A stretch of 44,921 nt of DNA from Bacteroidales bacterium Phil12 (GTDB taxonomy: Bacteria > Bacteroidota > Bacteroidia > Bacteroidales > P3): contig NWBO01000087.1 of the NCBI GenBank assembly GCA_002633275.1, positions 1-44,921 of the forward strand, given 5' to 3'. Below, piece after piece: positions 185 through 44,580 of this stretch. The notes beneath the pieces are model-generated. The model was not told the DNA's origin and ran no database searches. It worked only from the letters and a program-made list of their open reading frames with translations. The translations under genes and the position numbers were made by a program. The first letter of the stretch is position 1; each line of letters begins with the position of its first letter.

Positions 185-258
185 TTTACTGATGTTTAAC
201 ACTAATTTATTAGTGTTGGACACTAATTTGCTGATGTGAGACACTAATTTTTTAATAA
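185..258. repeat. 21-bp repeat array 1
   Basis: About three and a half units of the degenerate 21-bp intergenic repeat lie downstream of sbcC. The centre (AACACTAAT, tt, ATTAGTGTT) is a perfect palindrome with a 2-nt spacer. Later units use the variant words GTGTTGGACAC and ATGTGAGACAC. Confidence 0.8.
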
Positions 259-280
259 CACTTCAAAATAAAACTACTTG

Positions 281-3271
281 TTATCTTCTTATAATTTCCA
301 CTTGTGAAACCGTCGGATTTTTACGTTTAACTTGAATTTGAGCCGATATTCTTTCTTTCAAATCTGCAACATGGGAAATAATTCCCACCTTTGAAAAACG
401 TTTTTCTCCATTGATGCCACCTATCTGATGCAGTTTTTCCAAAGTCTCCATAACCACGTTCAAGTATTCCCCGCTTAACGTTCCGAAACCTTCATCGATA
501 AACAGAATATCACAAAAAGCATTATTGCTGCTCATCTTTGCCAAACCCAATGCCAACGACAACGAAACGATAAAACTCTCCCCTCCCGAAAGATTAGCCG
601 AAGAAGAGGTCAAACCACCCTCAAATTTATCCTTTATAAATATGCTTAAAGTGTCAGGCTGCGAACAAAGTTCAAAACGGTCTGAAAATCTATTGAGATA
701 ATAATTCGATTTATTCAACAAGTCGTCCAAGATAAAACTTTGAGCAATCTTGCGGAATTTATTACCGTCTGCCGAACCAAAATCCTTTGACAATTGAGCC
801 CATTTCAGTTCTTCTTGCTCCAAAATATCTTTTTCTTTGAGTTTGGTTTGATACAAGGCTATGTTTTTCTCGTTTTCTTTGAGTTTTGTCTGATTTGCGC
901 CATTTGAGAATTGAATTTGCTTTATCGTTTCTTGTATTTCAGAGATTTTTTGCTGCAAAAACTCTTTATTTTCGCATTTCTCAAACTGTAAATCCATATT
1001 TTGCAAATCATTTATCTGTCGATTGATTTGTTCAATAGCACCTTTGATTTGCAAGACCTCACTTTGCTTTTCTTCGTGCATCTTTTGAATGGCTGCTATC
1101 GTGGTTTGGGAATAATTTTTCAATTGTTCAACGTCCTCAATGGTAATATTGGGATTTTCTTGTTTGAAATCGTTAATATCTTTATCGCAATGTTTGATAT
1201 TTGCTCTTAAATTCTCGATATTTGCTTTCCAAGTAGCGTATTTTTCTTTGAAATCCGAAAACTTAATAATCAAATCGCTGACTTGCTCGGGCTCTATGTT
1301 TTCGTTTTCCCATTTATCGACACTTTCGTCTAAGGAGTGGCGGAAATTCAAACACTGGCTTATCAATTTTTGTAAGTCTTCCTTTTCGTGTTTTACTTGT
1401 AAAAGTTTGTTTTTATCACTTTCCAATCTCGCTATATCATTACTTAAAGTATTGGCAAGCGTCTGTGTTTTATCGATAAGTTCTATTTGCGTTTCTATTT
1501 CAAGTTTTTTGTTTTCTATTGCAATAGATATGTTCTCCAATGAAGCAATACCGAGTTTTTCTTGATAAGACTTTACCTTTAATATATAAGCGTCGTAATT
1601 CTTTTGTTGATTTGTTTTATCATCTTGAAATTGCAACAAATTTTTCTTTAACTGCGAAATCAAAGCATCTGCTTTGACTTTTTTGTGATTATTATCTTGC
1701 AATTGCTTTTGAGCGTTGTTCATTTCAGTATGTAACGGCTCTACAATTTTTGCAAAATCCTCATCATTGATTATCTCTTTTATTTTCTGACCGCATAACG
1801 GACAAGCATCGCCTACCGAAAGTTTCATACGGGTTTGCTTAGCCCAATTATCCAATGAACTTGCTATTTTATCGTATTTACTCTTGCTTTCGTTGAATGC
1901 TTCTTCGTACTTTTTGGCAAGAGTATTGATTTGCTCCAAATCAGTTTCAGATTTTTTTATCTGCGAGAGAGTTTCGTTTATCTGTGTTTGAGTATTTTTT
2001 ATTTGCGATTGGATATTATTCAAAAGACTGATATTTTTATCCAATAATGAAAGGCTATCTTTGTCATCATTATGTTTTTTACGCTTTTCATTCAAAGAGT
2101 TTATATCTATTGAGCAATATTCTTTTTGCTTAGCATTTATTTGATTTTGTTTATCATTTATTTCTTTGTCTATATCTGCGTACGATTGGTTAAGAGTATC
2201 CAAACGATTTTTATCATATTTGAGTCCGGCAATTATTAAAAAGAATTTTTTCTTGTATGACACTGCTTGATTGGTTTGAGCAATAAGTGAAGCGTTATAT
2301 TCACTTTTAAGTTTTATAATATTTCTTAAAGCGACGGTTTTATTCCATAGTTCGATAGTTTGATTTTCCTGTTTATACTGCTCACTATCCAAATAATTTT
2401 GTGCTTGTTGTAATTTGTCTTGATTAATTGTTTTTTGCTTGGAAAGATTATCCAAATTAATCAAATAATCTATCTTTTTTTTCAAAGCATCTTCCTCTTG
2501 CCTTTTTTGTTTCAACTCGGTATCGAATTGAGCAATGGCGGTTTCTATTTGTTGCTTTTCTTCACCCGATAGTAGCGTAACGGAATTTAATTCAATATTT
2601 TTGTCGTTAAGAAGTCTTTCTTTTTCAGAGTGAATTCTAAAAATATTCCTGCCGATAGTAGCATAAAGCTCGGTTTGAGTAAGTTTTTCCAAGATTTCAC
2701 TTTTCTCTTTTTCATCACTCTTCAAAAATTTTGTAAATTCCCCTTGCGAAAGCATACAAGTACGACAGAATTGCTCAAAAGTCATACCAACACATTTGGA
2801 TATTTCTTCCTTTATTTCGTTATCTTTCTTGAAATACGTGTTATCGGTTTTGCAAGAGAGTTCCCATTCAATTTTTTGAATTTTGCCGTCATTCCTGTTA
2901 TGGGCTTTTCTTACTTCCCATTTGGCGACATATTCTTTGTTTTGGCTATCAACAAACTCCAATTCGCTATAACCATCGGTTGAATTTCGCCTTAATAACA
3001 ATCTTGCATCATTTGCAGATATGGTTTGGGTATTATTGTCGGAGTTTTTAAGTGTTGTAAAACCTGTAATATTCCCTTGTATATTGGCACTCATTCGTGG
3101 AGTTGTCTTGTACAAAGCCAAACATATTGCGTCCAATATAGTTGTTTTGCCACTGCCTGTATCCCCAGTTATAAGGAATAATGGTTCGCTTTTCAAAACT
3201 TCACTCTGAAAATCAATCTTAGCATATTCTATCGATGCTATATTATGTATTGTTAATGTTTTCAATATCAT
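281..3271 (-). CDS. sbcC: Exonuclease subunit SbcC (Rad50-like SMC ATPase)
   Basis: ATPase subunit of the SbcCD (Mre11-Rad50-like) nuclease, which opens hairpins and processes protein-blocked DNA ends. At about 996 aa it has the family's usual size and order: Walker A GDTGSGKTT near residues 36-44, a long coiled coil broken by the zinc-hook motif CPLCG near residue 490, a second coiled coil, the ABC signature LSGGES near 890 and Walker B with FIDEGFGTL near 925. The upstream TTG at 3277 is possible. I prefer the ATG at 3271 because it is preceded at 7-nt spacing by GGAGG, a strong Shine-Dalgarno sequence, and starts 2 nt after the sbcD stop. The two genes are clearly translated together. Confidence 0.95.
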   Translation of the reverse strand: MILKTLTIHNIASIEYAKIDFQSEVLKSEPLFLITGDTGSGKTTILDAICLALYKTTPRMSANIQGNITGFTTLKNSDNNTQTISANDARLLLRRNSTDGYSELEFVDSQNKEYVAKWEVRKAHNRNDGKIQKIEWELSCKTDNTYFKKDNEIKEEISKCVGMTFEQFCRTCMLSQGEFTKFLKSDEKEKSEILEKLTQTELYATIGRNIFRIHSEKERLLNDKNIELNSVTLLSGEEKQQIETAIAQFDTELKQKRQEEDALKKKIDYLINLDNLSKQKTINQDKLQQAQNYLDSEQYKQENQTIELWNKTVALRNIIKLKSEYNASLIAQTNQAVSYKKKFFLIIAGLKYDKNRLDTLNQSYADIDKEINDKQNQINAKQKEYCSIDINSLNEKRKKHNDDKDSLSLLDKNISLLNNIQSQIKNTQTQINETLSQIKKSETDLEQINTLAKKYEEAFNESKSKYDKIASSLDNWAKQTRMKLSVGDACPLCGQKIKEIINDEDFAKIVEPLHTEMNNAQKQLQDNNHKKVKADALISQLKKNLLQFQDDKTNQQKNYDAYILKVKSYQEKLGIASLENISIAIENKKLEIETQIELIDKTQTLANTLSNDIARLESDKNKLLQVKHEKEDLQKLISQCLNFRHSLDESVDKWENENIEPEQVSDLIIKFSDFKEKYATWKANIENLRANIKHCDKDINDFKQENPNITIEDVEQLKNYSQTTIAAIQKMHEEKQSEVLQIKGAIEQINRQINDLQNMDLQFEKCENKEFLQQKISEIQETIKQIQFSNGANQTKLKENEKNIALYQTKLKEKDILEQEELKWAQLSKDFGSADGNKFRKIAQSFILDDLLNKSNYYLNRFSDRFELCSQPDTLSIFIKDKFEGGLTSSSANLSGGESFIVSLSLALGLAKMSSNNAFCDILFIDEGFGTLSGEYLNVVMETLEKLHQIGGINGEKRFSKVGIISHVADLKERISAQIQVKRKNPTVSQVEIIRR

Positions 3272-3273
3272 CT

Positions 3274-4443
3274 TCAATCCTCCGTTACCTGATAATTCAT
3301 TGCATAATCAATCATCTGCTTGAACTCATCGCACAAAACCACTCCTTTCTTTTCCATATAATCCGTTGCTATATCAACAGGTGCCATTTGCTTTAATTCC
3401 TCAACGGTTATTATTTCCTTTTCCTTTGAAGTATTGTTTTGCTGCTCTCTTTCGATATTAAAAGTACAGAAATACGCTCCTACGCTATTACATAACTCTA
3501 TTGCCTGTTCTTTGCTATTGACGGGAAGATAATCTTTAACCTTAACATTAAAACGAATAAAGCAATCCTTCAACTCATCTTTATGATTATTTACGTAGTT
3601 AAAGACATCATCAAAAGGAATACTTTGTTTGGGTACGGTTTTAAGCGGCATATAGTCTTTTATTTCAATAGGAGTGATTTTTGTTCGCTCTTCGTCTATC
3701 TCTACCAACGAAACGCTATGCGGATAATCTTCATTAAAAGAAACACTGATGGGCGAGCCGCAATATCTGGCCTTGTTGTTGGAATTTTTCAAGGTCTGCG
3801 GAAAATGAATATGCCCCAACGCAATGTACGAATAAGTTTCGCCCAATTTTTCCAACGGATAAAACTCCATATCTTGCACATGAACGCTTTTACTTCTTAA
3901 CTCGCTGTTGGTAACAGCCAAATGACAGGAAAGAATTACGGGTAAATTGTTTCGATTTATTTGTTTGATATAACCTTCCAAGCCTTCAAACATATTATCG
4001 GCATAACGCGAATAAAAATGAGGGACTGCCGCAACATAGCCTTTGAGTTCGTTACCGTTTTTTATCTCAATAATATGTTTTGAATAATCTACGTTTTCGT
4101 TTTGCTTTTCGATATTTCCCACAACAAAGACATTAAAACATGACCAAAGACTGCTGCTTATCTCCAATTTGCTCGGAGAATCGTGATTACCCGCCGTTAC
4201 AACTATAACCATATTGGGACAAGATTGATGAATGGTAAGCATAGCATCGGTATAAACCTTTTGTATCGTTGAAGAGGGCGAAGATAAATTATAAACATCG
4301 CCGCTCAAAATCATACAGTCGGGTTTATGTTCAAAGACAATATCCGCCAATTGTTTTAAGAAATTCTTTTCGCTTTCTATTCTATCATAACCATAAAGCA
4401 CATTACCCAAATGCCAGTCTGAGGTATGGAGGATTTTCAACAT
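3274..4443 (-). CDS. sbcD: Exonuclease subunit SbcD (Mre11-like)
   Basis: Calcineurin-like metallophosphoesterase that forms the nuclease of the SbcCD complex; cleavage depends on Mn2+. The 389-aa protein carries the metal-binding motifs in order: DWHLGN (9-14), GDVYN (48-52), GNHD (85-88) and GHIH (about 208-211). The C-terminal cap domain is present and the length is normal for the family. It is the first gene of the sbcD-sbcC operon. A Bacteroidota-type -7 box lies at 4490-4497. No anomalies were seen. Confidence 0.95.
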   Translation of the reverse strand: MLKILHTSDWHLGNVLYGYDRIESEKNFLKQLADIVFEHKPDCMILSGDVYNLSSPSSTIQKVYTDAMLTIHQSCPNMVIVVTAGNHDSPSKLEISSSLWSCFNVFVVGNIEKQNENVDYSKHIIEIKNGNELKGYVAAVPHFYSRYADNMFEGLEGYIKQINRNNLPVILSCHLAVTNSELRSKSVHVQDMEFYPLEKLGETYSYIALGHIHFPQTLKNSNNKARYCGSPISVSFNEDYPHSVSLVEIDEERTKITPIEIKDYMPLKTVPKQSIPFDDVFNYVNNHKDELKDCFIRFNVKVKDYLPVNSKEQAIELCNSVGAYFCTFNIEREQQNNTSKEKEIITVEELKQMAPVDIATDYMEKKGVVLCDEFKQMIDYAMNYQVTED

Positions 4444-4489
4444 TGTATTATTAGTATTTTTGGATTTAACAAAACAATTTTTTGAGTTA

Positions 4490-4497
4490 CAAAATTA
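4490..4497 (-). promoter_or_regulatory. Promoter -7 box for sbcDC
   Basis: On the minus strand this reads TAATTTTG, a match to the Bacteroidota sigma-ABfr -7 consensus TAnnTTTG, about 47 nt upstream of the sbcD ATG. It is half of a divergent promoter region shared with the gene at 4610. Confidence 0.55.
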
Positions 4498-4560
4498 TGT
4501 TTTTTTTGTCTTTTTATTAAGTTTTTTTATAAAATAATTTGCCGATACAATAATTATTTG

Positions 4561-4568
4561 TAATTTTG
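4561..4568 (+). promoter_or_regulatory. Promoter -7 box for the OMP-rsmE operon
   Basis: TAATTTTG matches TAnnTTTG, with a TTTG-like -33 element near 4539. It lies 42 nt upstream of the ATG at 4610. Confidence 0.6.
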
Positions 4569-4609
4569 AAGTCTGAAAAATAGTATAAAAACGTAATATC
4601 ACAGACACG

Positions 4610-5416
4610 ATGAAAAAGATATTTTTTATGGCAATGGTTTCGTGCGTTGCGCTATCTGCAAGTTTAACTTCTCTTGCATCGGGGGATTGGAGAAAAGGTA
4701 TTTGGAACAGAGATGTATCTGAAAATTTACTAAGTCTAAACATCGAAGCACTTCCTATAATAACAGAAGCATTCAAGAATACAACGCCTTGGGCAGGTGG
4801 CTTTAACCTTGGCTACGAATATAAGATGCGTCCAAGTATCATTCACAACAAAATATCTTTTGGCTTAGGTGGTCATATAGGTGTTAGCCGCTATTTCGGA
4901 AAAAGTATCAGCACTCCTGTTTATGGTCATAACTTGGATCAGGTTTGGGACCACTATAAATCATATACCGAAATTCCCATTATGCTTGATGCAAACGTTT
5001 ATTGGAACTTCAAAAGAAGTAATCTGTTTATAGGCGTAAGTGCAGGTATCAACCTTATGCTTGGACAAAGAGATGCTTCCCTTGAAATGATTGATACAAT
5101 CAATACAAAAGACTTTGAAGACGCTTACAAACTTACTCATAACAAGGAAGTAGATATGATTTCCATTCAAAAAGATGCAAACAACGTTGCATTGAATCAT
5201 ATCTTACTAACATTCAGAGGTATGATTGGTTATACGTATGAACTTTCCCAAGATTGGAGTTTAAGAGTTAAAGCCGGCGTTGAATATCAAGGCAAATACT
5301 CTGATGAATTTAAGGGCTACCATATAGATTCCGACTATATAGACCGATACCACAACGAAGATTCTCCTTCAATGCTTAATCCGTTCTTCTCAATCGGAAT
5401 TGTTTATTCTCTATAA
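4610..5416 (+). CDS. Putative outer-membrane beta-barrel protein
   Basis: A 268-aa protein with a clear signal peptide: a KK start, a hydrophobic stretch to about residue 20, then a likely cut near ASG. The mature part alternates short aromatic and glycine-rich strands (for example GFNLGYEYKM and SFGLGGHIGVSRYFG) and ends in FFSIGIVYSL, typical of an outer-membrane barrel of the porin/OmpA-barrel class. I do not recognise a specific family or substrate. It is the first gene of a likely operon with rsmE, 6 nt downstream, and has its own promoter. Confidence 0.7.
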   Translation: MKKIFFMAMVSCVALSASLTSLASGDWRKGIWNRDVSENLLSLNIEALPIITEAFKNTTPWAGGFNLGYEYKMRPSIIHNKISFGLGGHIGVSRYFGKSISTPVYGHNLDQVWDHYKSYTEIPIMLDANVYWNFKRSNLFIGVSAGINLMLGQRDASLEMIDTINTKDFEDAYKLTHNKEVDMISIQKDANNVALNHILLTFRGMIGYTYELSQDWSLRVKAGVEYQGKYSDEFKGYHIDSDYIDRYHNEDSPSMLNPFFSIGIVYSL

Positions 5417-5422
5417 AGAAAT

Positions 5423-6127
5423 ATGCAGTTATTTTTTATTCCTCAATACAACAAAGAAGATATAATAACGCTTGACAAAGAAGAGTCGGCACATATTTCA
5501 AAGGTTTTGAGACTTCAAGAAGGTGAAAAGATTTCCCTTACCGACGGCAAGGGAAATCTTTTTACGTCTGTCATATTGGAATCCACTCCGAAAAGATGCA
5601 CTGTCAAAATCACGGATATTGAAGAAAACTACCAAAAACGTGATTTCAAAATACATCTTGCCATAGCCCCGACAAAAAATATCAACCGCATCGAATGGTT
5701 GTTGGAAAAAATTGTTGAGATTGGCATTGACGAAATAACACCATTATTAACCGAACACAGCGAAAGAAAAAACATCAATATAGAACGCTTGGATAAAATA
5801 ATAGTGTCTGCAATGAAGCAATCTATAAAATGTTTCAAGCCGAAGTTGAATGATTTGACCAAATTCTCCACCTTGTTAAACAACCTTAAAGACGAGAAAA
5901 AATACCTTTGTTGTTGCAGCGACGAAGAGAAAATCTTAATAAAAAACGATTATAAGCCAAACGAAGATGTTGTTATATTCATCGGTTCCGAAGGCGACTT
6001 TTCTCCAACCGAAATTACGCAAGCAAAACAAAAAGGTTGCAAACTTATCACTTTGGGAGAACAACGTCTTAGAACAGAAACGGCAGGTCTTTACGCTGTA
6101 AGCACTATACATTTTCTTAATCAATGA
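5423..6127 (+). CDS. rsmE: 16S rRNA (uracil1498-N3)-methyltransferase
   Basis: SPOUT-class methyltransferase that uses S-adenosylmethionine to methylate U1498 of 16S rRNA. The 234-aa protein has the N-terminal PUA-like RNA-binding part (SAHISKVLRLQEG, residues 22-35) and the C-terminal knotted SAM site with GSEGDFS (188-194) and LGEQRLRTETA (211-221). Length and motifs are ordinary. Its stop overlaps the next start by 4 nt (ATGA), so it is translated with the DUF4159 gene. Confidence 0.95.
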   Translation: MQLFFIPQYNKEDIITLDKEESAHISKVLRLQEGEKISLTDGKGNLFTSVILESTPKRCTVKITDIEENYQKRDFKIHLAIAPTKNINRIEWLLEKIVEIGIDEITPLLTEHSERKNINIERLDKIIVSAMKQSIKCFKPKLNDLTKFSTLLNNLKDEKKYLCCCSDEEKILIKNDYKPNEDVVIFIGSEGDFSPTEITQAKQKGCKLITLGEQRLRTETAGLYAVSTIHFLNQ

Positions 6128-6777: not shown

Positions 6778-6834
6778 AACAAACGTTAGAAAGGAATATA
6801 ATAAAATCAGATTGATATTTCACATCGATATATT

Positions 6835-6920
6835 GGTATGTAATATCAGCAAATTAGTGTTTAACATCAGTAAAATAATATTAAACATTGGTAAATTAGT
6901 GTTTAACATTATTTTTTTGT
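6835..6920. repeat. 21-bp repeat array 2
   Basis: Four in-phase 21-bp units between the convergent DUF4159 and aroK genes, alternating GTGTTTAACATCAG and ATATTAAACATTGG types. The last unit runs into a seven-T tract (6912-6918), which could end rightward transcription. Confidence 0.85.
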
Positions 6921-6967
6921 TATCACTGACTGCAAAAACCTTTGCAATATGATAAATATTGAAAACT

Positions 6968-11139: not shown

Positions 11140-11206
11140 AATTAGTGTTAAACATCAGCAAAATAGTGTTAAACATCAGCCGACGGATGTTTAACACTAT
11201 TTTTTT
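11140..11206. repeat. 21-bp repeat array 3
   Basis: Two tandem units (GTGTTAAACATCAG type) and one inverted unit. The inversion creates the terminator hairpin described separately. Confidence 0.85.
11161..11206 (+). terminator. Rho-independent terminator made from 21-bp repeat units
   Basis: Bases 11163-11177 are perfectly complementary to 11186-11200 (core AGTGTTAAACATC / GATGTTTAACACT), with an 8-nt loop and a T-run from 11200 to 11206. The stem can be extended outward by further A-T pairs. It is about 100 nt downstream of the DUF6089 stop. Confidence 0.75.
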
Positions 11207-15642: not shown

Positions 15643-15645
15643 ATG

Positions 15646-15771
15646 ATATTTGACACCGATAAAATAATGTTTAACATTAGCAAATTAGTATTAAACATTA
15701 ATAAATTAGTGTTAAACACCGGTAAAATAATATTAAACACCGGTAAAACGGTGTGAGTGATTAATAAAAGT
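15646..15771. repeat. 21-bp repeat array 4 (longest, six exact-length units)
   Basis: Six contiguous units of exactly 21 bp, starting at 15646, 15667, 15688, 15709, 15730 and 15751. Five are of the NTRTTWRACAYY type; the last switches to the GTGTGAGTGATT type. It lies between the tRNA nucleotidyltransferase stop and miaA. Confidence 0.92.
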
Positions 15772-20644: not shown

Positions 20645-20748
20645 TTTTACTGATGTTTAACACTATTTTGCTAATGTTTAATATTATTTTTCTAATGTTT
20701 AATACTAATTTTGTGGTATCACATCAAAATTTTGCGGTATCAACACAT
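20645..20748. repeat. 21-bp repeat array 5
   Basis: Five in-phase units between the glycosyltransferase stop and gmhA. The first three use TGATGTTTAACAC, TAATGTTTAATAT and TAATGTTTAATAC. The last two have diverged to TGTGGTATCACATC and TGCGGTATCAAC while keeping the 21-bp phase. Confidence 0.85.
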
Positions 20749-21805: not shown

Positions 21806-21870
21806 CAGTGTTAAACATTAGCAAATTAATCTCTCACATTATTTTTCCAATCATTAACACTAATAAAACG
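21806..21870. repeat. 21-bp repeat array 6
   Basis: Three in-phase units with mixed words: GTGTTAAACATTAG, ATCTCTCACATTAT and ATCATTAACACTAA. The end abuts the DUF4199 stop at 21876. Confidence 0.85.
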
Positions 21871-23006: not shown

Positions 23007-23090
23007 AATCACTCACATTATTTTTTTAATCACTCACACCAGCAAAGTAATCACTCACATTAATAAATTAGTTATTGACACTATTTTTCA
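23007..23090. repeat. 21-bp repeat array 7
   Basis: Four in-phase units, dominated by the AATCACTCACA word (three copies), the last being AGTTATTGACACTA. It fills nearly all the space between DUF4199 and the stop of the DUF4838 gene. Confidence 0.9.
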
Positions 23091-25405: not shown

Positions 25406-26497
25406 TTATTGTTTAATTTGCCTTTTAGTGAAAGCCAGGCTATCTCCCCACTCATCATAAAGCACACTGTGGTTAATGCTACTCATTCTTTTATCAAGGC
25501 TGTTGCTACACCACTCGCCGCTATCTTTAACAGTATCTTTATCAGGATAAATCAAGTATTCTTTTCTACTTTGCTTCGGCGAAATATTAGGCATTATTAC
25601 ATTCGCTCCGCTAAGGATGGCTTTTTCTCTTCCAAACTCATCAATGGTTTGATTGGCAGTTGCACTCACCATATTTATTTCAGGCATCATCAACCGTAAA
25701 ACCGCAATCATCTTCATAGTCATAGCCATTCGTTTCTCGTTTGGCGGAATAATGTCTTTGAATTTATATAACGGGGTATCGGGGTGAGGTATGAAAGGTC
25801 CCATACCTACCATTGCTATTTCTTTTCGTTTGAAATACAATAAATCTTCCGCTAAATCTTCCACAGTCTGAAAAGGCAACCCAATCATCACACCCGTCCC
25901 AGTCTGATAACCTATATTCAACAATGCATCTATACAATCTTTTCTTATTTGGAACGAATGCGACAAATTTCTCGGGTGAATTTTGTAAAACAATTCCTCA
26001 TTTGTCGTTTCTATTCTCAGTAAATACCTATGCGCCCCGGCCAAAAACCAACGCTTATATGTGTATTCACTTTGCTCGCCAAGCGAAAGAGTTATGCCAA
26101 GTTTATTATCAGAAATCTCTTTAATCTTTTTAATTAAATATTCTATCTTTTCAATAAAATTTTCATCTTGTCTTTCGCCACTTTGCAAGGCAATAGAACC
26201 ATAATGCAGTTTTATAGCAATTTTTGCACAATCCAAAACCTCTTCTTCGCTTAATTCATAACGATTGACAACCAAATTATCTTTCCTTAATCCGCAATAC
26301 AAACAATTTTTCCTACATTTGTTGGAATACTCTATCAAACCACGCAAATGAACATTGTTATCCAAATATTTTAATTTGACTTCCAAAGCCTTATCCAACA
26401 ATTTCTGCATATCCTCTCCCTCTAATGAAAGCAGATATAAGAGTTCTTGTTTAGTAAAATTTTGTTTGGTTAATATTTCGTTTAATTCCAATTCCAC
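25406..26497 (-). CDS. hydE: [FeFe] hydrogenase H-cluster maturase HydE
   Basis: Radical SAM enzyme that, with HydG and HydF, builds the diiron subcluster of [FeFe] hydrogenase. The 363-aa protein has CRKNCLYCGLR (61-71, the CxxxCxxC cluster motif), SGERQDE, a GITLSLGEQ stretch, RIETTNEELF and GTGVMIGLPFQT, which together favour HydE over BioB or PylB. The start is GTG: an in-frame TAA lies 3 nt before it, and a TATATTTG -7 box lies about 30 nt upstream. No hydF, hydG or hydrogenase gene is nearby. It implies an anaerobic, hydrogen-metabolising cell. Confidence 0.88.
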   Translation of the reverse strand: MELELNEILTKQNFTKQELLYLLSLEGEDMQKLLDKALEVKLKYLDNNVHLRGLIEYSNKCRKNCLYCGLRKDNLVVNRYELSEEEVLDCAKIAIKLHYGSIALQSGERQDENFIEKIEYLIKKIKEISDNKLGITLSLGEQSEYTYKRWFLAGAHRYLLRIETTNEELFYKIHPRNLSHSFQIRKDCIDALLNIGYQTGTGVMIGLPFQTVEDLAEDLLYFKRKEIAMVGMGPFIPHPDTPLYKFKDIIPPNEKRMAMTMKMIAVLRLMMPEINMVSATANQTIDEFGREKAILSGANVIMPNISPKQSRKEYLIYPDKDTVKDSGEWCSNSLDKRMSSINHSVLYDEWGDSLAFTKRQIKQ

Positions 26498-26567: not shown

Positions 26568-26595
26568 GTCAATTCAAAAAATTGTTGTACTTTTG
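26568..26595 (+). promoter_or_regulatory. Promoter of the SRP RNA gene
   Basis: TTG at 26568 (-33) and TACTTTTG at 26588-26595 (-7) have the spacing of Bacteroidota promoters. The RNA begins about 6 nt after the -7 box. Confidence 0.7.
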
Positions 26596-26600
26596 CATTC

Positions 26601-26703
26601 GGGTAAGTCTTGTACGACCAGCTCCCTTTGAACTCCCCCAGGTCTTGACCGAAGCAAGGGTAAAAAGGTTGTAGCGGTGCGATATAAGTAGCTTACCTTT
26701 TTT
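26601..26703 (+). ncRNA. ffs: Signal recognition particle RNA, small bacterial type
   Basis: RNA scaffold of the SRP, which with Ffh brings membrane-protein ribosomes to FtsY. The ends pair (GGTAAG at 26602-26607 with CTTACC at 26692-26697), followed by a six-T terminator. The apical region (CCCCCAGGTC, TTGACC, GAAGCAAGGG, 26635-26660) is the conserved domain IV with the Ffh-binding loop, in the form seen in Bacteroidota. The paired part is about 97 nt. It is the only plus-strand gene in a long block of minus-strand genes. Confidence 0.92.
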
Positions 26704-26832: not shown

Positions 26833-26898
26833 TTAGTGTTTAACACTAATTTTTGAACCATTAACACTAAATTTTTAATTAATGATACTATTTTTTGC
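26833..26898. repeat. 21-bp repeat array 8
   Basis: Three in-phase units: AGTGTTTAACACTAAT (itself a palindrome), AACCATTAACACTAA and AATTAATGATACTA. It lies just after the stop side of the NtrC-like gene. Confidence 0.85.
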
Positions 26899-31416: not shown

Positions 31417-31479
31417 AGTGTGAGAGACTAATAAATTAGTTACTCACACTATTTCACTAATCACTCACACTAATTTTTC
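31417..31479. repeat. 21-bp repeat array 9
   Basis: Three in-phase units with the words AGTGTGAGAGACTAAT, AGTTACTCACACTATT and AATCACTCACACTAAT, in the 234-nt gap between the UvrD stop and DUF4290. Nothing else is visible in that gap. Confidence 0.85.
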
Positions 31480-35096: not shown

Positions 35097-35181
35097 AGTG
35101 TTTAACATCAGTAAAATAATATTAAACACTAATAAAATAATATTAAACATCAGTAAAGCTATTACAAATACCAATAAAATA
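35097..35181. repeat. 21-bp repeat array 10
   Basis: Four in-phase units (GTGTTTAACATCAG, ATATTAAACACTAA, ATATTAAACATCAG and a diverged ATTACAAATACCAA) in the 540-nt gap 34734-35273. That gap also holds the leader at 34734-34880 and a terminator at 35201-35236. Confidence 0.88.
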
Positions 35182-36498: not shown

Positions 36499-36554
36499 TC
36501 TTTTTTATTCTATCAAAATATTTCTTATTTCCACTTTCAAAAAAACAAACTACC

Positions 36555-36640: not shown

Positions 36641-36653
36641 AAAAATTTGTTTT

Positions 36654-37481: not shown

Positions 37482-37566
37482 ATCTTAATTATTTTTTAAC
37501 AATCCAAACTGCGATATTTCTTGAAACAAAAACACTTCTCGCCCCAAGATATCTATTTTCGGCGTG

Positions 37567-37574
37567 CAAAGTTC
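37567..37574 (-). promoter_or_regulatory. Possible promoter -7 box for mrp
   Basis: Minus-strand GAACTTTG differs from TAnnTTTG at one position, with a TTTTG-like -33 element about 20 bp upstream (near 37594). Confidence 0.35.
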
Positions 37575-37661
37575 CGATATTTTTTTCATTTAGCAAAATT
37601 TTACATAATATATTACGACTGTCATCTCAACATATAATGAGTTTAACATAAGCCGCAAAAC

Positions 37662-37767
37662 TAATACCACTTATTACCAAATTAGTATTTAACACTAATA
37701 AATTAATGTTTAACATCAGTAAAATAGTATTAAATATCAGTAAAATTATATGAGATACTAATTTTTG
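37662..37767. repeat. 21-bp repeat array 11
   Basis: Five in-phase units in the 483-nt divergent region between mrp and the lipoprotein gene: ATACCACTTATTACC (diverged), GTATTTAACACTAA, ATGTTTAACATCAG, GTATTAAATATCAG and ATATGAGATACTAA. The rest of the region holds a promoter at each end. Confidence 0.88.
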
Positions 37768-37862
37768 AATATCATAACGCAGGATTTTTTGTGATTTATG
37801 CAAATTTCGTTACCAAATATCAAAAAAATCATTAGTTGGTACAATATTATATAAATTTATTG

Positions 37863-37870
37863 TAAATTTG
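37863..37870 (+). promoter_or_regulatory. Promoter -7 box for the lipoprotein-porP-porE operon
   Basis: TAAATTTG followed by C matches TAnnTTTG; a TTGG lies about 20 bp upstream. The leader to the ATG is about 95 nt. Confidence 0.55.
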
Positions 37871-37964
37871 CAATTGAAAAAAATTTTTTTTCGCCTTAAA
37901 TGATTTTATTAATTAAAAAACAAAAATAGTTTTGCGGAATTGCGAAATCGTATAAGTAAATAGT

Positions 37965-38663
37965 ATGAAAAAAATAGTTTTATCTATAATCGTTGCGGTA
38001 TGCTCACTTACAATTTTTTCTTGTAAGTCATTGGAGGAATCCACATTTCATTCGGACAATCAAAATCCTATTTTACTGCCACGTTTAACATGCTGGATTG
38101 ACCAGCCTTCATTTGAAAATGTTTATGGAGCCAACTCTTGGGCAGAAAAATCTTCAAACGATTTGCAGCACCCATACGGCAGCACCGAGACTCCTTACGG
38201 CAAGGGCGTGTATGAAATAAACGAAAAAACGCAGTTATACACTGCCGAAAAGAGAATACAAGACGCTTGTCAGATTTTTGTATATGATGTAAATGAAAAT
38301 ATATGCGACCCTTCAACACGCAGAGCCGGCAATATTGTTTTACGTGCCGGAAGCATTTATTGCAAGAACAATTATAAATGGTCGTGGCTTAGCGGTTTTA
38401 CTCTTGGTATCTTCAACGCTATGGGTATGCCTATGTGTTCCAACACCACAGAATTGGAAGTGATTGTTGAGATATATGATTTAAGAAATAATCTTGTTGC
38501 ACAATTCAATGAAAGAGGTTACGCCAAATATCCCATGGCAGCATATCATGGTTACTACGAGTTTCAGAGAAAAGCCGGCGATATGGCGTTGCAAGACGGC
38601 TTAATCAAAATCAAAGAATTGATTAACCGCGATTATGATATGATTATGTCCAAATTAAGGTAA
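37965..38663 (+). CDS. Hypothetical lipoprotein
   Basis: A 232-aa lipoprotein with lipobox TIFSCKS (Cys20). I recognise no domain. The mature part is rich in Trp, Tyr and Cys (LTCWIDQPSFENVYG, RLAG-free middle, CKNNYKWSWLSGFTLGIFNAMGMP), with six or so cysteines that could form disulphides, and a mixed alpha/beta C-terminus. It ends 10 nt before a PorP/SprF gene, so it could be an outer-membrane partner of that system; this is inference from position only. Confidence 0.65.
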   Translation: MKKIVLSIIVAVCSLTIFSCKSLEESTFHSDNQNPILLPRLTCWIDQPSFENVYGANSWAEKSSNDLQHPYGSTETPYGKGVYEINEKTQLYTAEKRIQDACQIFVYDVNENICDPSTRRAGNIVLRAGSIYCKNNYKWSWLSGFTLGIFNAMGMPMCSNTTELEVIVEIYDLRNNLVAQFNERGYAKYPMAAYHGYYEFQRKAGDMALQDGLIKIKELINRDYDMIMSKLR

Positions 38664-38673
38664 GAAATATGAT

Positions 38674-39675
38674 GTGGAACCAATAAAAAAGAAAATAATA
38701 TTCGTGATAATGTTTGTGCTTACTTTGGGGGTGCAGGCTCAGGATATACATTTTTCTTCTGTTGGTTTCAATCCTATGTTTTACAATCCGGCGATGACAG
38801 GTTTTATGAATAGCAAATTCAGAGTATCCACAATTTACCGAAATCAATGGCAAACGGTTTCGAGAGGTTACAACACTTTTTTTGCTTCATTCGAGGCTCA
38901 GCCCTATACATCGTTGGACAATTCTTTTGGTATAGGTTGCGGAATAGGATTTACAAGCGATGTGGCAGGAAGCCTGTCTTTTGGAGAGAAAGATATTGCC
39001 GTTTCGGTATCTTCATTCTTTGCTTTGGACAGAGATAACAAAAATTATATTTCAATAGGTGTTCAAGGTTGCTCAAAAGGTTGGGGAATGAATTTATCCA
39101 ATGCCGAATTTAATAATCAAGGCAATTACGATGACAATATCACTTACGAGAGTTTGAATACATACGATTTTTCTTTGGGCATTTCATTTCAATCTGCCAA
39201 AGACGAAAATCATTTATTCAGCACCTCTGTTGCTTTGTTTCATATCAATACTCCGCAACTTTCGAGGTTTGAAAACGGCGATGTTTATTTACACCGACGT
39301 TTGTTTTCGACTATATCTTACACTTTTCCGTTAAAAAACGAACGTCTGCTCTTTAATCCGCAAATTTTTTACCAACATCAACATAATTTCAACGAAATCC
39401 TTTTTGGTGGCGACTTATTAATAAAACTTAAAGACGCAATTTTCACAACAGAGATATTGACAATAGGAATGTATGTAAGAAACCTTGAATCCGTTGTCAT
39501 TACTCCGAAATTCAAATACAATAATTTTATGGCAGGTGTGGCTTACGATGTCAATCTTTCCAAACTCAGCAAAGTTTCCAAGACCTATGGGGCTTTTGAA
39601 TTTTGGCTTTCGTATGCTTTCAACCCGATATATCAACGACAAAAACAAACAAAAATACCATGTCCAATATTTTGA
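38674..39675 (+). CDS. PorP/SprF-family type IX secretion membrane protein
   Basis: A 333-aa outer-membrane barrel of the PorP/SprF family, which in the type IX secretion system sits at the cell surface and anchors or presents secreted proteins. It has a signal peptide ending near VQAQ, then the family start DIHFSSVGFNPMFYNPAMTG and RNQWQTV. The start is GTG at 38674, supported by the PIKKK basic segment needed for the signal peptide; the next ATG (38710) would lose it. The gene overlaps the PorE-like gene by 16 nt. Confidence 0.88.
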   Translation: MEPIKKKIIFVIMFVLTLGVQAQDIHFSSVGFNPMFYNPAMTGFMNSKFRVSTIYRNQWQTVSRGYNTFFASFEAQPYTSLDNSFGIGCGIGFTSDVAGSLSFGEKDIAVSVSSFFALDRDNKNYISIGVQGCSKGWGMNLSNAEFNNQGNYDDNITYESLNTYDFSLGISFQSAKDENHLFSTSVALFHINTPQLSRFENGDVYLHRRLFSTISYTFPLKNERLLFNPQIFYQHQHNFNEILFGGDLLIKLKDAIFTTEILTIGMYVRNLESVVITPKFKYNNFMAGVAYDVNLSKLSKVSKTYGAFEFWLSYAFNPIYQRQKQTKIPCPIF

Positions 39676-41645
39676 AAAAAACTCTTATTATAGTTATGGT
39701 TTGCATATTTGCCACTCCTATGACAAATACAGCATTCGCTCAGGAGAAATATGCCAAAGAATACGAGAAACAAGGAGACAAAGCCTTTGCAAGTGGAGCC
39801 TACACTCAGGCATTGGAATACTACACATTGGGTAGGAAATTTCTAAAACAGAATATTAACCTTATGTACAAATGTGGAGAAACCTGTCTTAAAATGAATG
39901 ACTACGACAAGGCGGAGTATTGGTATCAAAAAGTTTTGATTGAATCCGAAGACCAAAACATTAACCAGAAATATCCGCTACTTTATCTGCATTTGGCTCA
40001 AAGTGCAATAAGTAACGGCAATATTATTCAGGCTCAAAGTTTTCTTAACACCTGTCTTTTGGATTGTAATGATATTGAGATAAGGAAACAATGCAAAAAA
40101 GAATTGGAGAAAATCGATTGGATTGTTGCTAACAGCGAGATACAGAATTTTAACATCACAAATTTGGGTAAGAATATCAACAGCGAGACCTCCGAACTCA
40201 ATACTTTTGTTCTACGCGATAGTATCTTGGTATTTACAAAACCCACTTACAAAACCAAAACCACTAAAAAGCAAACTTATTACACCGATATTTACAATCA
40301 AATCCATTTTTCATATATTGACGAATATTATTACACACCTGCAAATCTTTTGAATTGGGGCGACATTAATAAAAAGAAAACAGATGTGTCGGATTTGTTT
40401 TTAGATACCGTTACATACACAGCATATTTCACTTACACAAAGACTAAAAACAATCAAAAGATTTCACAAATCTACTACTCCACACTAAACAAAAAAACAA
40501 ACAAATGGTCAAAACCGCAAATCTTTAAGCCATTGGAGGACGACAAACACTCTTATACTCACCCTGTCATTGCATGGAGCAACAATGAATGTATTATGTA
40601 TTTTGCTTCCGACAGAAATGGTGGTTATGGTAATATGGATATTTGGTACATCGATATGCAAGACCAAAACGCAACGCCTATCAACTGCGGTTCTACTATC
40701 AACACAATAGGTAACGAGATTACTCCTTTTTATTATGGTAATGACGGCGAGTTGTATTTCGCCTCCGACACTCATCATGGCTTTGGTGGTTTTGATATTT
40801 TCCGAAGTGAAGGTAGCAAACAACGTTGGCATCAAGTGGAGAACCTTCTGAAACCTATCAACTCCTCTGCTAACGATATGTATCCGTTTATTGTGGATTC
40901 AGATGAGGAAGGTTATTTTACTTCCAACAGAGTTTCGGAAAACAATATCGACAACAAAACCTGCTGCAACGACCTTTATCGTTTCAACAGCAAATTACCG
41001 CTAACTCCAACGATGAATACTATCGTTGAAAAGCAAACCGAAGGCTTTAATCCCGCTTATGACTTACCTATTGAGTTGTATTTTCATAACGACAGCCCCG
41101 ATGCCGGTAGCGAGCTAACGACTACCAATCTTTCTTACAAAGACTGCTATGATATGTACCGTTCTTTATCGAACCAATACAAAGTTAATCGTACCAAAGG
41201 CTTAGATGACTCCACCGCTAACGAAAAATTAGCAGAGATTGACGATTTTATGAATAACAAATTGACTAAAAACTACGACAAACTCAATTCTGCGTTGGAT
41301 TATATGATTGACCACCTGCAAAAAGGCGAAAAACTGACAATTCAAATCAGAGGTTATTGTTCTGCATTGTATGAAACGGATTACAATTTCAAACTTGCTG
41401 AAAGACGTATCGTAAGTTTTGAAAACTATATGCGTTCATACAAAAACGGAGTGCTTAAACATTATATGGAGACACAAGCAGAGGACGGCAAAAAGTTACT
41501 TGAAATAGAGCATTTGTCCATTGGAAAATTGGAATCCACTTCTCCGAACCCTACAACATTGGAAGAAAAACGCCGAAGCATATATCTGCCGGAGGCTATG
41601 AACGAAAGACGTATTGAAGTTAAGGTTATACAAATCAGACATTAG
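39660..41645 (+). CDS. PorE-like TPR/PD40/OmpA protein
   Basis: A 661-aa periplasmic or outer-membrane protein with the layout of PorE: signal peptide (to about AFAQ, residue 28), TPR repeats (about 30-130, with GDKAFASGAYTQALEYY and KAEYWYQKVL), a PD40/WD40-like propeller (about 190-440, with MYFASDRNGGYGNMDIWY and LYFASDTHHGFGGFDIF) and a C-terminal OmpA-like region (about 480-661). In that region the peptidoglycan-binding motif is degenerate: IRGYCSALYETDYN replaces GHTDNxG. The start at 39660 is preferred since it gives a signal peptide. Pairing with PorP is typical of this secretion system. Confidence 0.85.
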   Translation: MSNILKKTLIIVMVCIFATPMTNTAFAQEKYAKEYEKQGDKAFASGAYTQALEYYTLGRKFLKQNINLMYKCGETCLKMNDYDKAEYWYQKVLIESEDQNINQKYPLLYLHLAQSAISNGNIIQAQSFLNTCLLDCNDIEIRKQCKKELEKIDWIVANSEIQNFNITNLGKNINSETSELNTFVLRDSILVFTKPTYKTKTTKKQTYYTDIYNQIHFSYIDEYYYTPANLLNWGDINKKKTDVSDLFLDTVTYTAYFTYTKTKNNQKISQIYYSTLNKKTNKWSKPQIFKPLEDDKHSYTHPVIAWSNNECIMYFASDRNGGYGNMDIWYIDMQDQNATPINCGSTINTIGNEITPFYYGNDGELYFASDTHHGFGGFDIFRSEGSKQRWHQVENLLKPINSSANDMYPFIVDSDEEGYFTSNRVSENNIDNKTCCNDLYRFNSKLPLTPTMNTIVEKQTEGFNPAYDLPIELYFHNDSPDAGSELTTTNLSYKDCYDMYRSLSNQYKVNRTKGLDDSTANEKLAEIDDFMNNKLTKNYDKLNSALDYMIDHLQKGEKLTIQIRGYCSALYETDYNFKLAERRIVSFENYMRSYKNGVLKHYMETQAEDGKKLLEIEHLSIGKLESTSPNPTTLEEKRRSIYLPEAMNERRIEVKVIQIRH

Positions 41646-41666
41646 CAATAAATATGTATAAATATC

Positions 41667-41697
41667 AAGGTGCAGTGATAATTCATTGCACTTTTTG
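41667..41697 (+). terminator. Terminator after the PorE-like gene
   Basis: GTGCAGTGA (41670-41678) pairs with TCATTGCAC (41683-41691) with one G-T pair, followed by TTTTTG. Confidence 0.8.
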
Positions 41698-41720
41698 TTT
41701 ATCAAATGAAAAGAGAAAAT

Positions 41721-41787
41721 CAGTGTTAATGATTAGCAAATTAATGTGAGTGATTAATAAATTAGTGTGAGTGATTAATAAATTAGT
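41721..41787. repeat. 21-bp repeat array 12
   Basis: Three in-phase units ending 5 nt before the ATG of the lipoprotein at 41792: GTGTTAATGATTAG, ATGTGAGTGATTAA and GTGTGAGTGATTAA. The last two are almost identical. Confidence 0.88.
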
Positions 41788-41791
41788 TGCA

Positions 41792-42640
41792 ATGAATAAA
41801 AAATTTATATTAATAATCATATCCGCCGTTGTGCTTCTTGTCAGTTGCAAACGAGAAGAGGAAAACGATTTATCACATTCCAACTTAAAAGGCTGTGTCA
41901 AATCCATTCGCGAAATATCTTACCAAGCCTCGGGCAATCAAGATACGATTATCAAAGGCGATATTGTTATGGGCAGCGATGTTTCAAATCTTTATGCCGA
42001 GTATAATGAGCAAGGCAATCAAAAGTTTGTGATAAATTACGACAATAACGGCAATCAGTTGGATAAATGGGTGTTTAAGTACAGTGCAAAAGGCGAACAG
42101 CTTGGCGGCAATTATTATCACGCCGACAATACTCTTTTGGATTCCACTTATTATGTCAAAGACGTCAAGGGTAGAATTATCGAGTACTACCATTTATTTG
42201 CCGACGGCAATTTGCGTTACAAAACATTTTATACATACGACAACAAAGGCAACATATCGGAAGAAAAAACCTTCGACCAAACGAACACTCTTTACAGCAC
42301 AACGAAATACACTTACAAGAAAAATAAAGTCATAAAGGATGAAAATTTTGACGGTAGCAATCAACTGAAATATTTCAGCACATACGCATACGACAAAAAC
42401 AGCAATCTTATTCAACAAATTATCTATAACGCCGACAAATCCATAAACACATCGGGCAATTACGCTTATAACGAACATAACGATATTATCCGTCAAATTA
42501 CTAAGTTATCAAACGAAGAGGATATGACTTACACCTACACTTACAAGTACGACCATCACAACAATTGGACTGAAAAAATCACTTTTATCAACAACGTTCC
42601 TGCCTTTATCACCACCCGACAAATAGAATATTTTCAATAA
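41792..42640 (+). CDS. Lipoprotein with YD-like repeats
   Basis: A 282-aa lipoprotein (lipobox LLVSCKR, Cys19) whose mature part is made of about ten short repeats of the form YDNxGNxxxxxxxxxxNxLxxxxxY (for example TYDNKGNISEEKTF and AYDKNSNLIQQIIY). The pattern resembles RHS/YD repeats, though no toxin or polymorphic C-terminus is attached. The ATG at 41792 gives a proper signal sequence; an upstream in-frame ATG at 41771 lies inside repeat array 12. It follows a terminator and so is probably a separate transcription unit. Confidence 0.72.
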   Translation: MNKKFILIIISAVVLLVSCKREEENDLSHSNLKGCVKSIREISYQASGNQDTIIKGDIVMGSDVSNLYAEYNEQGNQKFVINYDNNGNQLDKWVFKYSAKGEQLGGNYYHADNTLLDSTYYVKDVKGRIIEYYHLFADGNLRYKTFYTYDNKGNISEEKTFDQTNTLYSTTKYTYKKNKVIKDENFDGSNQLKYFSTYAYDKNSNLIQQIIYNADKSINTSGNYAYNEHNDIIRQITKLSNEEDMTYTYTYKYDHHNNWTEKITFINNVPAFITTRQIEYFQ

Positions 42641-42666
42641 AAAAGCATCAATACAATGTATAAAAA

Positions 42667-42731
42667 TAGTGTTAAACACTAATAAAATAATGTTTAACAC
42701 TATTTTGCTAATCATTAACATTAAATTTTTG
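42667..42731. repeat. 21-bp repeat array 13
   Basis: Three in-phase units. The first two are inverted relative to each other in their cores, so AGTGTTAAAC (42668-42677) can pair with GTTTAACACT (42691-42700), followed by ATTTTG. This is a possible weak terminator after the lipoprotein gene. Confidence 0.88.
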
Positions 42732-42825
42732 AATATACGTATTATTCTTCCATCTTGTCGGAAAAATCAGATTTTGCAAAGCACAATTTAATAAAATCAT
42801 TTTCTGTCATTAAAAATAATATTTG

Positions 42826-42833
42826 TAACTTTG
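42826..42833 (+). promoter_or_regulatory. Promoter -7 box for mltG
   Basis: TAACTTTG followed by C matches TAnnTTTG, with ATTTG-type sequence before it. Its position (33 nt before the ATG at 42866) rules against the longer reading frame that starts at 42755. Confidence 0.6.
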
Positions 42834-42865
42834 CAAAACATAATTCTAAAACATTTTGCCAAGAT

Positions 42866-43909
42866 ATGAACACTACTTTGAGTAACATAGTTTCAAAAAT
42901 AAAACAAAATAAATCGCTGAAATTTGGTCTTGTTGTTTTGTGTACATTGCTGATTGTTTTTGTCGGCTTTACCATTTATCTGACAAGTTCAAAGACTGAA
43001 AACACTGCCCCTATCGAAGTTTTTATTTATCCTAACGAAAATATAGAAAACGTAAAACAAAAACTTATAAGTCAAAATATTATAAGCAAATCCAACACTT
43101 CTTTCTCAACTTTTACAAAAGCGTTGAAATATGATAAAAACATTAAATCGGGGCGTTACGTCATAAAACCCCAAACTTCTGTTTTTACTTTGGTTAGGCA
43201 TCTTAGGTCGGGCTTGCAAACACCTGTGAAATTGGTCATACTTAACGCAAGAACGACAAAAGATTTTAGCGAAAAAGTTACCCAAGACCTTATGATAACT
43301 CCCGAAGATATGATGCAAGAAATACGCCGTCAAGGATATAAACACGATAATGAGGTGTTTGAATACATAATACCGAATACTTACGAGGTGTTTTGGAATA
43401 TTTCTGCCGAAAGTTTGTTGAACAAATTAAAGAAAGAAGACGATAAATTTTGGGAAAACAACAAAGAAAAGTTGAAAATGAGTGGTATGAGCAAGAAAGA
43501 TATTGTTATCTTGGCGTCTATTGTTAGCGAAGAAACCAATAAAAAGGACGAAATGCAAAGAATTGCCGGTGTTTATATCAATCGATTAAACAAAAATATG
43601 CTATTGCAGGCTGATCCTACGGTAAAATTTGCTGTTGGCGACTTTTCGTTAAAACGTATCACCGGAAAACATCTTCAAACTGCTTCCGAATTTAATACCT
43701 ACAAGAACTTGGGGCTTCCTCCCGCACCTATATGCCTTCCGAACATTGATGCGTTGAAAGCCGTGCTGAGATACGAAAAGCATGACTATATTTTCTTTTG
43801 TGCTAAGGAAGATTTCTCGGGTTATCACAACTTTGCAAAAACGGCAGAGCAACACCGAATAAACGCTATAAAGTATCGCAAAGCATTAAATGAAAGAGGT
43901 ATTCATTAA
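42866..43909 (+). CDS. mltG: Endolytic murein transglycosylase MltG
   Basis: Cleaves nascent glycan strands in the inner membrane and so sets glycan length. The 347-aa protein has one N-terminal membrane segment (about 20-40), a LysM-like region (VFIYPNENIENVKQKL) and the YceG catalytic domain with LASIVSEETN (catalytic Glu near 220), RIAGVYINRL, LQADPTV and the late FSGYHNFAKTAEQHR. I start at 42866 because the promoter lies inside the longer frame. Confidence 0.92.
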   Translation: MNTTLSNIVSKIKQNKSLKFGLVVLCTLLIVFVGFTIYLTSSKTENTAPIEVFIYPNENIENVKQKLISQNIISKSNTSFSTFTKALKYDKNIKSGRYVIKPQTSVFTLVRHLRSGLQTPVKLVILNARTTKDFSEKVTQDLMITPEDMMQEIRRQGYKHDNEVFEYIIPNTYEVFWNISAESLLNKLKKEDDKFWENNKEKLKMSGMSKKDIVILASIVSEETNKKDEMQRIAGVYINRLNKNMLLQADPTVKFAVGDFSLKRITGKHLQTASEFNTYKNLGLPPAPICLPNIDALKAVLRYEKHDYIFFCAKEDFSGYHNFAKTAEQHRINAIKYRKALNERGIH

Positions 43910-43940
43910 TATATATATATGAGATTTGTATTTGCAGCAA

Positions 43941-43958
43941 ACGTTATTTGTATAACGT
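43941..43958. promoter_or_regulatory. Palindrome upstream of the META-domain gene
   Basis: ACGTTAT, a 4-nt spacer, ATAACGT: a perfect 7+7 palindrome, about 65 nt before the ATG at 44022. It may be an operator or a short terminator hairpin for mltG. A near-consensus -7 box (TAATTTTTG, one base too long) lies at 43976-43984. Confidence 0.35.
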
Positions 43959-44021
43959 AAAAAAACGATTTGGAATAATTTTTGCAATAGAAGTTTAACG
44001 TAACATATAATTTTATTTATT

Positions 44022-44444
44022 ATGAAAAAAATATTTTTAATAGCATTAGCAATGGTTTTAGGCTCTTCGGCTTTTGCACAGAACGATACAATCACGAATG
44101 AAGATGCCATATACGACCAAGTTTGGGTTTTGTATCGAATGAATAACAAGAAAGTAAATTACAAAGAGAATGACGAAAAAATAACACTCGTCATAACAAG
44201 AGAAAACGAATATGCAGGTGGTTCAAGTGGCTGCAACCGATATTTTGCTCAGGCTGTTATAAAACGAAATCACCTTCTGTTCCGCTCTATGGGCTCAACT
44301 CGGATGGCATGTCCCGAAGACAAAGAGGAATTGGAGAGAACATATCTTACGGCAATAGATTACGTAGATTCTTACAAAATTATTGACGAAGACCTTTACC
44401 TTTACAAAAACGACCGTGCTATATTGGTGTTTAGAAAAGAGTAA
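44022..44444 (+). CDS. Exported META-domain (HslJ-like) protein
   Basis: A 140-aa protein with a signal peptide ending near FAQ (residue 20) and one META domain: VWVLYRMNNKKV, the motif SSGCNRYFA and STRMACPEDKEEL. META domains occur in HslJ, a heat-shock-linked periplasmic or lipoprotein factor; the function is uncertain. No lipobox cysteine is visible, so it is probably soluble in the periplasm. It stands alone between mltG and a repeat array. Confidence 0.82.
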   Translation: MKKIFLIALAMVLGSSAFAQNDTITNEDAIYDQVWVLYRMNNKKVNYKENDEKITLVITRENEYAGGSSGCNRYFAQAVIKRNHLLFRSMGSTRMACPEDKEELERTYLTAIDYVDSYKIIDEDLYLYKNDRAILVFRKE

Positions 44445-44515
44445 TAAAAAAAAGTTTTACGATTTAAGAAAAAAGCAAAATCAATATTCTTAAATTGCGT
44501 TTGTGGTAAAATTAA

Positions 44516-44580
44516 ATTAGTATTAATAACTAAGAAAATAATCATTAACATTATTTAATTAGTTAGGGACACTAATAGAT
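44516..44580. repeat. 21-bp repeat array 14
   Basis: Three in-phase but more diverged units: AGTATTAATAACTAA, AATCATTAACATTAT and AGTTAGGGACACTAA. It lies about 70 nt downstream of the META-domain gene. Apart from this and the element below, 44445-44921 shows nothing I can support. Confidence 0.75.

Follow-up and report, generated by a model that had tools for sequence, protein, structure and literature searches.

The analysed stretch of Bacteroidales bacterium Phil12 DNA (44,921 nt, contig C87 of the 2.96 Mb, 174-contig genome G000; hereafter the window) carries 14 short arrays of a degenerate 21-bp repeat, which an initial annotation made from the letters alone had described as having two to six units each. 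The arrays were checked by Tandem Repeats Finder, lag correlation, direct printing and a matrix of the unit's core. They proved to be real: the core matrix found a chain of two to six cores at exact 21-bp steps in all 14 listed places. The first array, of four cores (170..245), lies 3' of an SbcC-like open reading frame (ORF; 281-3277, minus strand, with Pfam matches). Five cores occupy a convergent gap at 6814..6910, and three cores a tandem gap at 11144..11198, 81 bp past a stop codon. The six-core array at 15645..15762 stands immediately 3' of a poly(A)-polymerase-like gene, and by alignment its orthologue in the sister species (G005) is 42 bp shorter. Three cores each were found at 20652..20706, 21807..21861 (mixed types), 31417..31471 (within a 240-bp gap 3' of uvrD), 35097..35151, 37684..37738 (a divergent gap), 41722..41776 (two of the three of the GTGTGAGTGATT type), 42668..42722 and 44519..44573 (diverged cores), four cores at 23007..23082 (three of the AATCACTCACA type) and two at 26835..26868. 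When 30-base windows with 22 or more matches were clustered, lag 21 gave 13 clusters and lag 42 eight, and all remaining lags from 5 to 49 together gave a single one, at lag 6. Rows of 21-bp repeats at 2124-2176, 4456-4494 and 26120-26169 fell, by eye, outside the core-motif family. The window also holds a Bacteroidales small signal recognition particle RNA (26594-26702; Rfam RF04183, 101.8 bits).

The wider G000 sample comprised 445 kb (the window plus 20 stretches of 20 kb), approximately 15% of the genome. With an array defined as two or more core-matrix units, it contained 74 arrays (43 of three units, 17 of four, 11 of two, two of six and one of five), nine of which bridge a weak unit flanked by good ones. 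The proposed frequency of about one array per 3 kb held in the window (14 per 45 kb) but not in the wider sample (74 per 445 kb), the window being denser; extrapolation of the latter figure gives about 500 arrays in the genome.

Each unit combines a dyad core of 13 bp, roughly RRTGTTWAACAYY, with an AT spacer of 8 bp. This symmetric core and spacer describe the unit better than the originally proposed variable and AT-rich halves; the GTGTGAGTGATT and AATCACTCACA forms are variants of the one core, and AATCAC and GTGTGAG represent further half-site types. Core positions 3 and 11 are nearly invariant (T and A, respectively), while positions 2 and 12 divide about equally between the two purines or the two pyrimidines. 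The dyad score was maximal at the core centre in G000 (0.78) and in the congeners G001 (0.59) and G007 (0.53). The strongest couplings in G000 joined the adjacent positions 4-5 and 9-10, positions 6-8 (TA, CC or GG) and the spacer centre; the outer complementary partners of the core were not among them.

Neighbouring cores were 21 bp apart in 222 counts and 18, 19, 20, 22, 23 or 24 bp apart in 1, 0, 2, 0, 0 and 0, three in all. Thus, the unit length is kept at 21, as initially claimed, and the near absence of other unit lengths for the core motif supports the proposed selection on spacing. Units flanking the arrays fade outward with the phase unchanged. A scan of the whole genome with the core pattern (up to two mismatches allowed) returned 386 matches and none in the reversed sequence. 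At a score of at least 9, the 445 kb held 241 cores versus 45 in the reversed control. In a separate count, 168 cores versus 0 in that control had a partner at 21 or 42 bp, and 65 versus 45 were solitary, hence the excess lies almost wholly in arrays. Lag clusters in the 445 kb numbered 64 at lag 21, 32 at lag 42, 11 at lag 69 and seven at lag 23. Those at lag 69 formed eight merged rows, every one inside predicted genes, and those at lag 23 were a separate intergenic family. This family consists of arrays of about three 23-bp units, most loci having their own palindrome (e.g., AAAAGTCCCGACTTTT) and three sharing an outer word close to ATCAATGCGGACTACT (L089 10390, L090 19333, L091 19825, L094 2878, L096 7871, L107 11319 and L108 12936).

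Genes and gaps were defined with a home-made gene caller, and the gap classes are approximate since it missed some genes. Array centres lay outside predicted genes in 60 of 64 cases though 79% of the DNA was predicted to be coding, which bears out the intergenic enrichment; with this placement and stop codons seen by eye in many units, a coding heptapeptide repeat (21 bp being seven codons) was rejected. Among the 74 arrays, 38 were in tandem, 13 in divergent and 11 in convergent gaps, eight overlapped a predicted gene and four were at stretch ends. Three arrays were within predicted ORFs (L100 5271, L103 15508 and L093 5910), the first two being by eye open in one frame. Arrays occupied none of the 91 tandem gaps under 60 bp and 19 of the 62 tandem gaps of 120-300 bp; in the latter size class they were present in 5/12 convergent and 0/15 divergent gaps, and divergent gaps above 300 bp held them in 11 of 19 cases. 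The arrays sit mostly between transcription units. In tandem gaps, the median distances were 62 bp from the upstream stop and 142 bp to the downstream start. The motif TAnnTTTG, which we take to be promoter-like, mostly fell between the array and the following gene (40 matches past the array, control 15, in 14.2 kb; 10 ahead of it, control 5, in 9.3 kb).

The array was nearer the upstream stop in 27 of the 38 tandem gaps, as might be expected of an RNA-level element, i.e., tandem hairpins or bidirectional intrinsic terminators at 3' ends. The arrays also folded better than shuffles (mean z of -3.8 for 148 strands of the 74 arrays; -0.5 for flanks), and the central 6-8 pair in G000 was complementary above expectation (0.627 vs 0.490). 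The remaining tests spoke against such an element. The outer core pairs in G000 showed no covariation (0.644 vs 0.657 expected; 0.462 vs 0.482 expected); apart from the 6-8 pair of G000, covariation was absent or negative in G000, G005, G001 and G007, and in G001 and G007 the central pair was strongly anti-complementary. On the sense strand, wobble pairs (67) were not favoured over A-C mismatches (72), the T-run was weaker on the sense side (14 vs 27 of 44 tandem arrays), and 13 of the 74 arrays lie in divergent gaps. A sense-strand hairpin with a U-run, the mark of intrinsic terminators, was not found, and a long mirrored hairpin was discarded, as the two flanks of an array matched each other no better than flanks taken from separate arrays, with a weak z of 2.55 for unit one against reversed unit three. 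Folding energy alone suggested an RNA hairpin or terminator; given the covariation, wobble and T-run results, we consider it very unlikely in G000.

The sister species G005 is close to G000 (97 and 98% protein identity for two genes; 95-96% DNA identity in five of six aligned window stretches and 87% in one) and has 387 matches to the core pattern. As to conservation of position, 20 of the 74 arrays fell in G005-aligned stretches and all 20 were aligned there, although an array disrupting the alignment might have escaped notice. Cores had 0.070 substitutions per site, spacers 0.129 and the remaining intergenic DNA 0.064. Core positions 3, 5 and 11 had changed in 1, 0 and 1 of 64 cores, and positions 12 and 13 showed T<->C changes only (8 and 6, respectively). 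The only insertions or deletions (indels) in arrays were +21 and -42, with about 3.7 indels expected over the 1189 array sites at the rate of other intergenic DNA, where 30 of 37 were of 1 bp, six of 2-4 bp and one of 43 bp.

Differences by whole units are what replication slippage at neutral minisatellites would leave behind, and homogeneous, locus-specific 21-bp arrays in G024, a genome of another genus, would also suit it. However, units next to each other resembled one another hardly more than units drawn at random from their genome (z of 1.9 in G000, 0.7 in G005, 0.9 in G001 and -2.7 in G007), and one word is common to the whole genome. It follows that the word is kept by something genome-wide and not mainly by local duplication. 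Slippage is disfavoured for the window family by the spacing and unit-likeness data, and we regard it as the least probable origin. The near-independence of units, together with the lack of covariation outside the central pair, argues against slippage, RNA hairpins and terminators alike.

Comparison with 13 congeners (14 genomes including G000) showed that only G005 shares the core word, the other 12 having 0-3 matches (controls 0-2). The word is thus nearly private to G000 and its sister; several of the congeners sampled have the same architecture built of other, unrelated words. G001 gave 30 lag-21 and 12 lag-22 clusters in 180 kb, G007 20 lag-21 clusters in 159 kb and G013 20 lag-22 clusters in 140 kb, the main word not accounting for all of them. 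A spacing of 21 was counted 88 times in G001, 180 times in G007 and 120 times in G005, each other distance from 15 to 29 occurring 0-2 times. Genome-wide, the G001 word had 144 matches in G001, 18 in G000, 21 in G005 and 0-6 elsewhere, and the G007 word 286 in G007 and 0-3 elsewhere. In G013, successive spacings of the CATATG word of up to 60 bp were 22 in 21 of 21 cases. A 32-bp two-unit CATATG word is present in the G013 genome in 109 near-identical copies (see L187 5529 and 6362), perhaps from a recent burst.

Beyond the genus, other genera of the family (3-76 kb sampled each; one, G022, read as N) were mixed, with clear 21-22-bp arrays in G024 and few or none in several. The G024 arrays, homogeneous and of up to about 10 units of 21 or 22 bp, have a unit sequence specific to each locus (L214 12356, L215 15720, L216 2144 and 8931, L162 10865). 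Tandem Repeats Finder detected no intergenic 21- or 22-bp arrays in five genomes of other families (20 kb each), and the lag scan gave one lag-22 cluster there, in G041. Heptamer-like tandem repeats (AGTTATG/AGTTAGG or AGTTGA) in L168 (G036) and at L118 2289 (G003) recall the TAACTGA repeats discussed below.

The phasing of AT and GC patches suggested that DNA shape alone might matter, the arrays being intrinsically curved and recognised by HU-like proteins with no need of a specific word. In a wedge model, the predicted bend exceeded that of shuffles in G000 (94 vs 40 degrees), G013 (79 vs 43) and G001 (63 vs 41), and G000 has 23 HU-family matches, compared with 13 in G005 and 2-9 in the other 12 congeners. 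The G007 arrays were uncurved in the same model (41 vs 45 degrees), so curvature does not hold for all members, and the specificity of the words seems too high to be explained by shape. Since any 21-bp period adds bends in phase, the curvature may be incidental. We find this explanation improbable, and HU was dismissed as the factor, as its gene counts do not track the arrays.

Our best reading, which we put forward tentatively and at somewhat less than an even chance, is that the arrays are clusters of putative binding sites, dyad-symmetric and usually three or four to an array, which the 21-bp (two-turn) spacing keeps on the same face of the helix. A putative sequence-specific DNA-binding protein would need several neighbouring sites, i.e., would bind cooperatively, for which the near-control level of solitary cores is indirect evidence; near-independent units and the lack of outer-pair covariation likewise favour clustered cooperative sites. 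Its role would be a nucleoid or boundary one, in which transcription units are marked or insulated, and not the regulation of individual genes. Specificity of the protein may drift between species with the sites following, which would yield species-own words in a common architecture. The sites, their spacing, dyad symmetry, constraint, placement, species specificity and near-independence are observed, whereas we infer the protein, its cooperativity, its role and its co-evolution with the sites. Plasmid iterons and partition sites offer a parallel: a few phased repeats about two helical turns apart, bound cooperatively by a protein, at a single origin or centromere. The present arrays resemble phased multi-site operators or iteron-like arrays in having several copies at about two-turn spacing, but are spread genome-wide between genes.

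Several observations weigh against cooperative phased sites. TAnnTTTG was no commoner in array gaps than in long array-free gaps (0.43 vs 0.40). HU-type genes number 23 in G000 and 3 in the array-rich G007, and no factor was found, though a whole-genome comparison aimed at it was not made. An A/T-rich matrix gave smeared spacings of 19-25 with a peak at 22 in G013, where the CATATG spacings are sharp. Some genomes have several families (the homogeneous locus-specific arrays of G024; the 23-bp family of G000), so a strict two-turn rule fits less well. Units one and three of G000 arrays were slightly more alike than chance (z of 1.9 direct, 2.55 reversed). Congeners were mostly array-free at the same gap, few gene pairs being compared. 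Finally, there are signs of copying. In one pair of G000 arrays a stretch of 56 bases is identical, while the flanks are unrelated. The 32-bp CATATG word of G013 has its 109 matches (up to three mismatches) in that genome and none in 13 congeners, and the order of four units was constant in seven copies, selected for one unit-specific variant. Two G000 gaps are wider than in most congeners compared: that after uvrD is 240 bp versus 16-35 bp, array-free, in seven congeners (about 33 bp in G004, whose match ended early there), G001 having an array of its own word at this place, and that after poly(A) polymerase is 166 bp versus 9-36 bp in three of four congeners, the fourth, G008, having 791 bp with its own arrays.

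These signs raised the main and serious rival, that the arrays are modular non-autonomous mobile elements resembling miniature inverted-repeat transposable elements (MITEs) such as BrickBuilt or BOX. A variable number of 21-22-bp inner units would lie inside inverted outer units, a transposase would act in trans and a different family would be amplified in each species; in that case it would be the transposition complex that requires the spacing. A second family in G001 and G013, which in symmetrised profiles has its outer units mirrored as far as about 95 bp from the centre, speaks for such outer units. On the other hand, diverged units of the G000 arrays remain in phase, all 20 arrays in G005-aligned stretches have counterparts, within the limit given above, and units within an array are hardly more alike than random ones. 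Of the two transposase families searched, Y1_Tnp (PF01797; the REP transposase) was found in none of the 14 genomes and rve (DDE) in none over the cut-off, with three weaker matches in G003; Y1_Tnp was present in three of nine searched genomes of other genera of the family. We hold a mobile origin to be possible but doubtful. Both sets of facts would be accommodated by a mobile element whose copies were later retained for protein binding. A second, mirror-symmetric element of about 190 bp was seen in three species, with three A-run/T-run units about 22 bp apart and inverted GC-rich units on both sides at about the same spacing (G001: L179, L194, L199, L200, L202, L203; G013: L127, L187, L209, L211-L213; G008: L122 2739 and 6209).

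The claim that no described family fits stands as far as the open-licence literature goes, which lacks most subscription journals: no description of such arrays was found in it. For each of REP/RAYT, CRISPR, intrinsic terminators and curvature, at least one feature that was tested did not agree with the arrays. CRISPR repeats have unique spacers, while here an 8-bp AT-rich spacer of common pattern recurs, in accordance with the initial view that the arrays are not CRISPR. BOX elements of pneumococcus are similarly modular and dispersed with a variable number of inner units, but their modules are longer and are not phased dyads. Porphyromonas gingivalis belongs to the Bacteroidales, and its BrickBuilt MITE is, of the described elements we found, the closest in kind. 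According to PMC4596501, BrickBuilt is intergenic, with short spacerless tandem units of 23 nt in variable number, 19 copies in strain ATCC 33277 and a flanking leader and tail with inverted ends; the present arrays have a 21-bp unit, 74 arrays per 445 kb, a degenerate dyad core and a word replaced between species. It is the 21-bp window family, and not the separate 23-bp family of G000, that unit length sets apart from BrickBuilt here. REP/BIME elements with RAYT, as described in PMC3733652, are likewise high-copy extragenic palindromes, mostly 3' of genes, some families being species-specific. The arrays possess a dyad, but it lacks the outer-pair covariation expected of a 20-40 nt palindromic hairpin; this, the absence of Y1_Tnp from all 14 genomes and the strict 21-bp phase led us to reject their membership. 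The TAACTGA repeats, as presented in PMC4679880, are abundant short intergenic direct repeats, including in five Bacteroidetes, but are built on a single invariable heptamer, which in the main genome mostly stands directly before start codons. The survey 'Satellites in the prokaryote world' (PMC6749651) also deals with prokaryote tandem repeats, under satellite definitions differing from ours, and reports few species with more than four satellites per Mb and transposed non-coding families as rare.

Dispersed repeats and phased binding arrays are each already known. In its broadest form, the preferred reading of cooperative phased sites would give one Bacteroidales family a chromosome-wide nucleoprotein system, in which hundreds of two-turn-phased dyad operators, with a putative cooperative protein, stand at transcription-unit borders and the recognition word is rewritten wholesale in each species with the geometry kept; we offer this as a speculative possibility, on balance doubtful. 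Exact spacing kept while the sequence is replaced between species amounts to a natural experiment on what a DNA element requires. If the arrays are mobile, they would form a dense, strictly phased class of bacterial repeats, and either way they can be searched for by spacing alone, the sequence not being needed. If a protein reads these sites, hundreds of them would have changed together, which would bear on how global DNA-binding specificities evolve.

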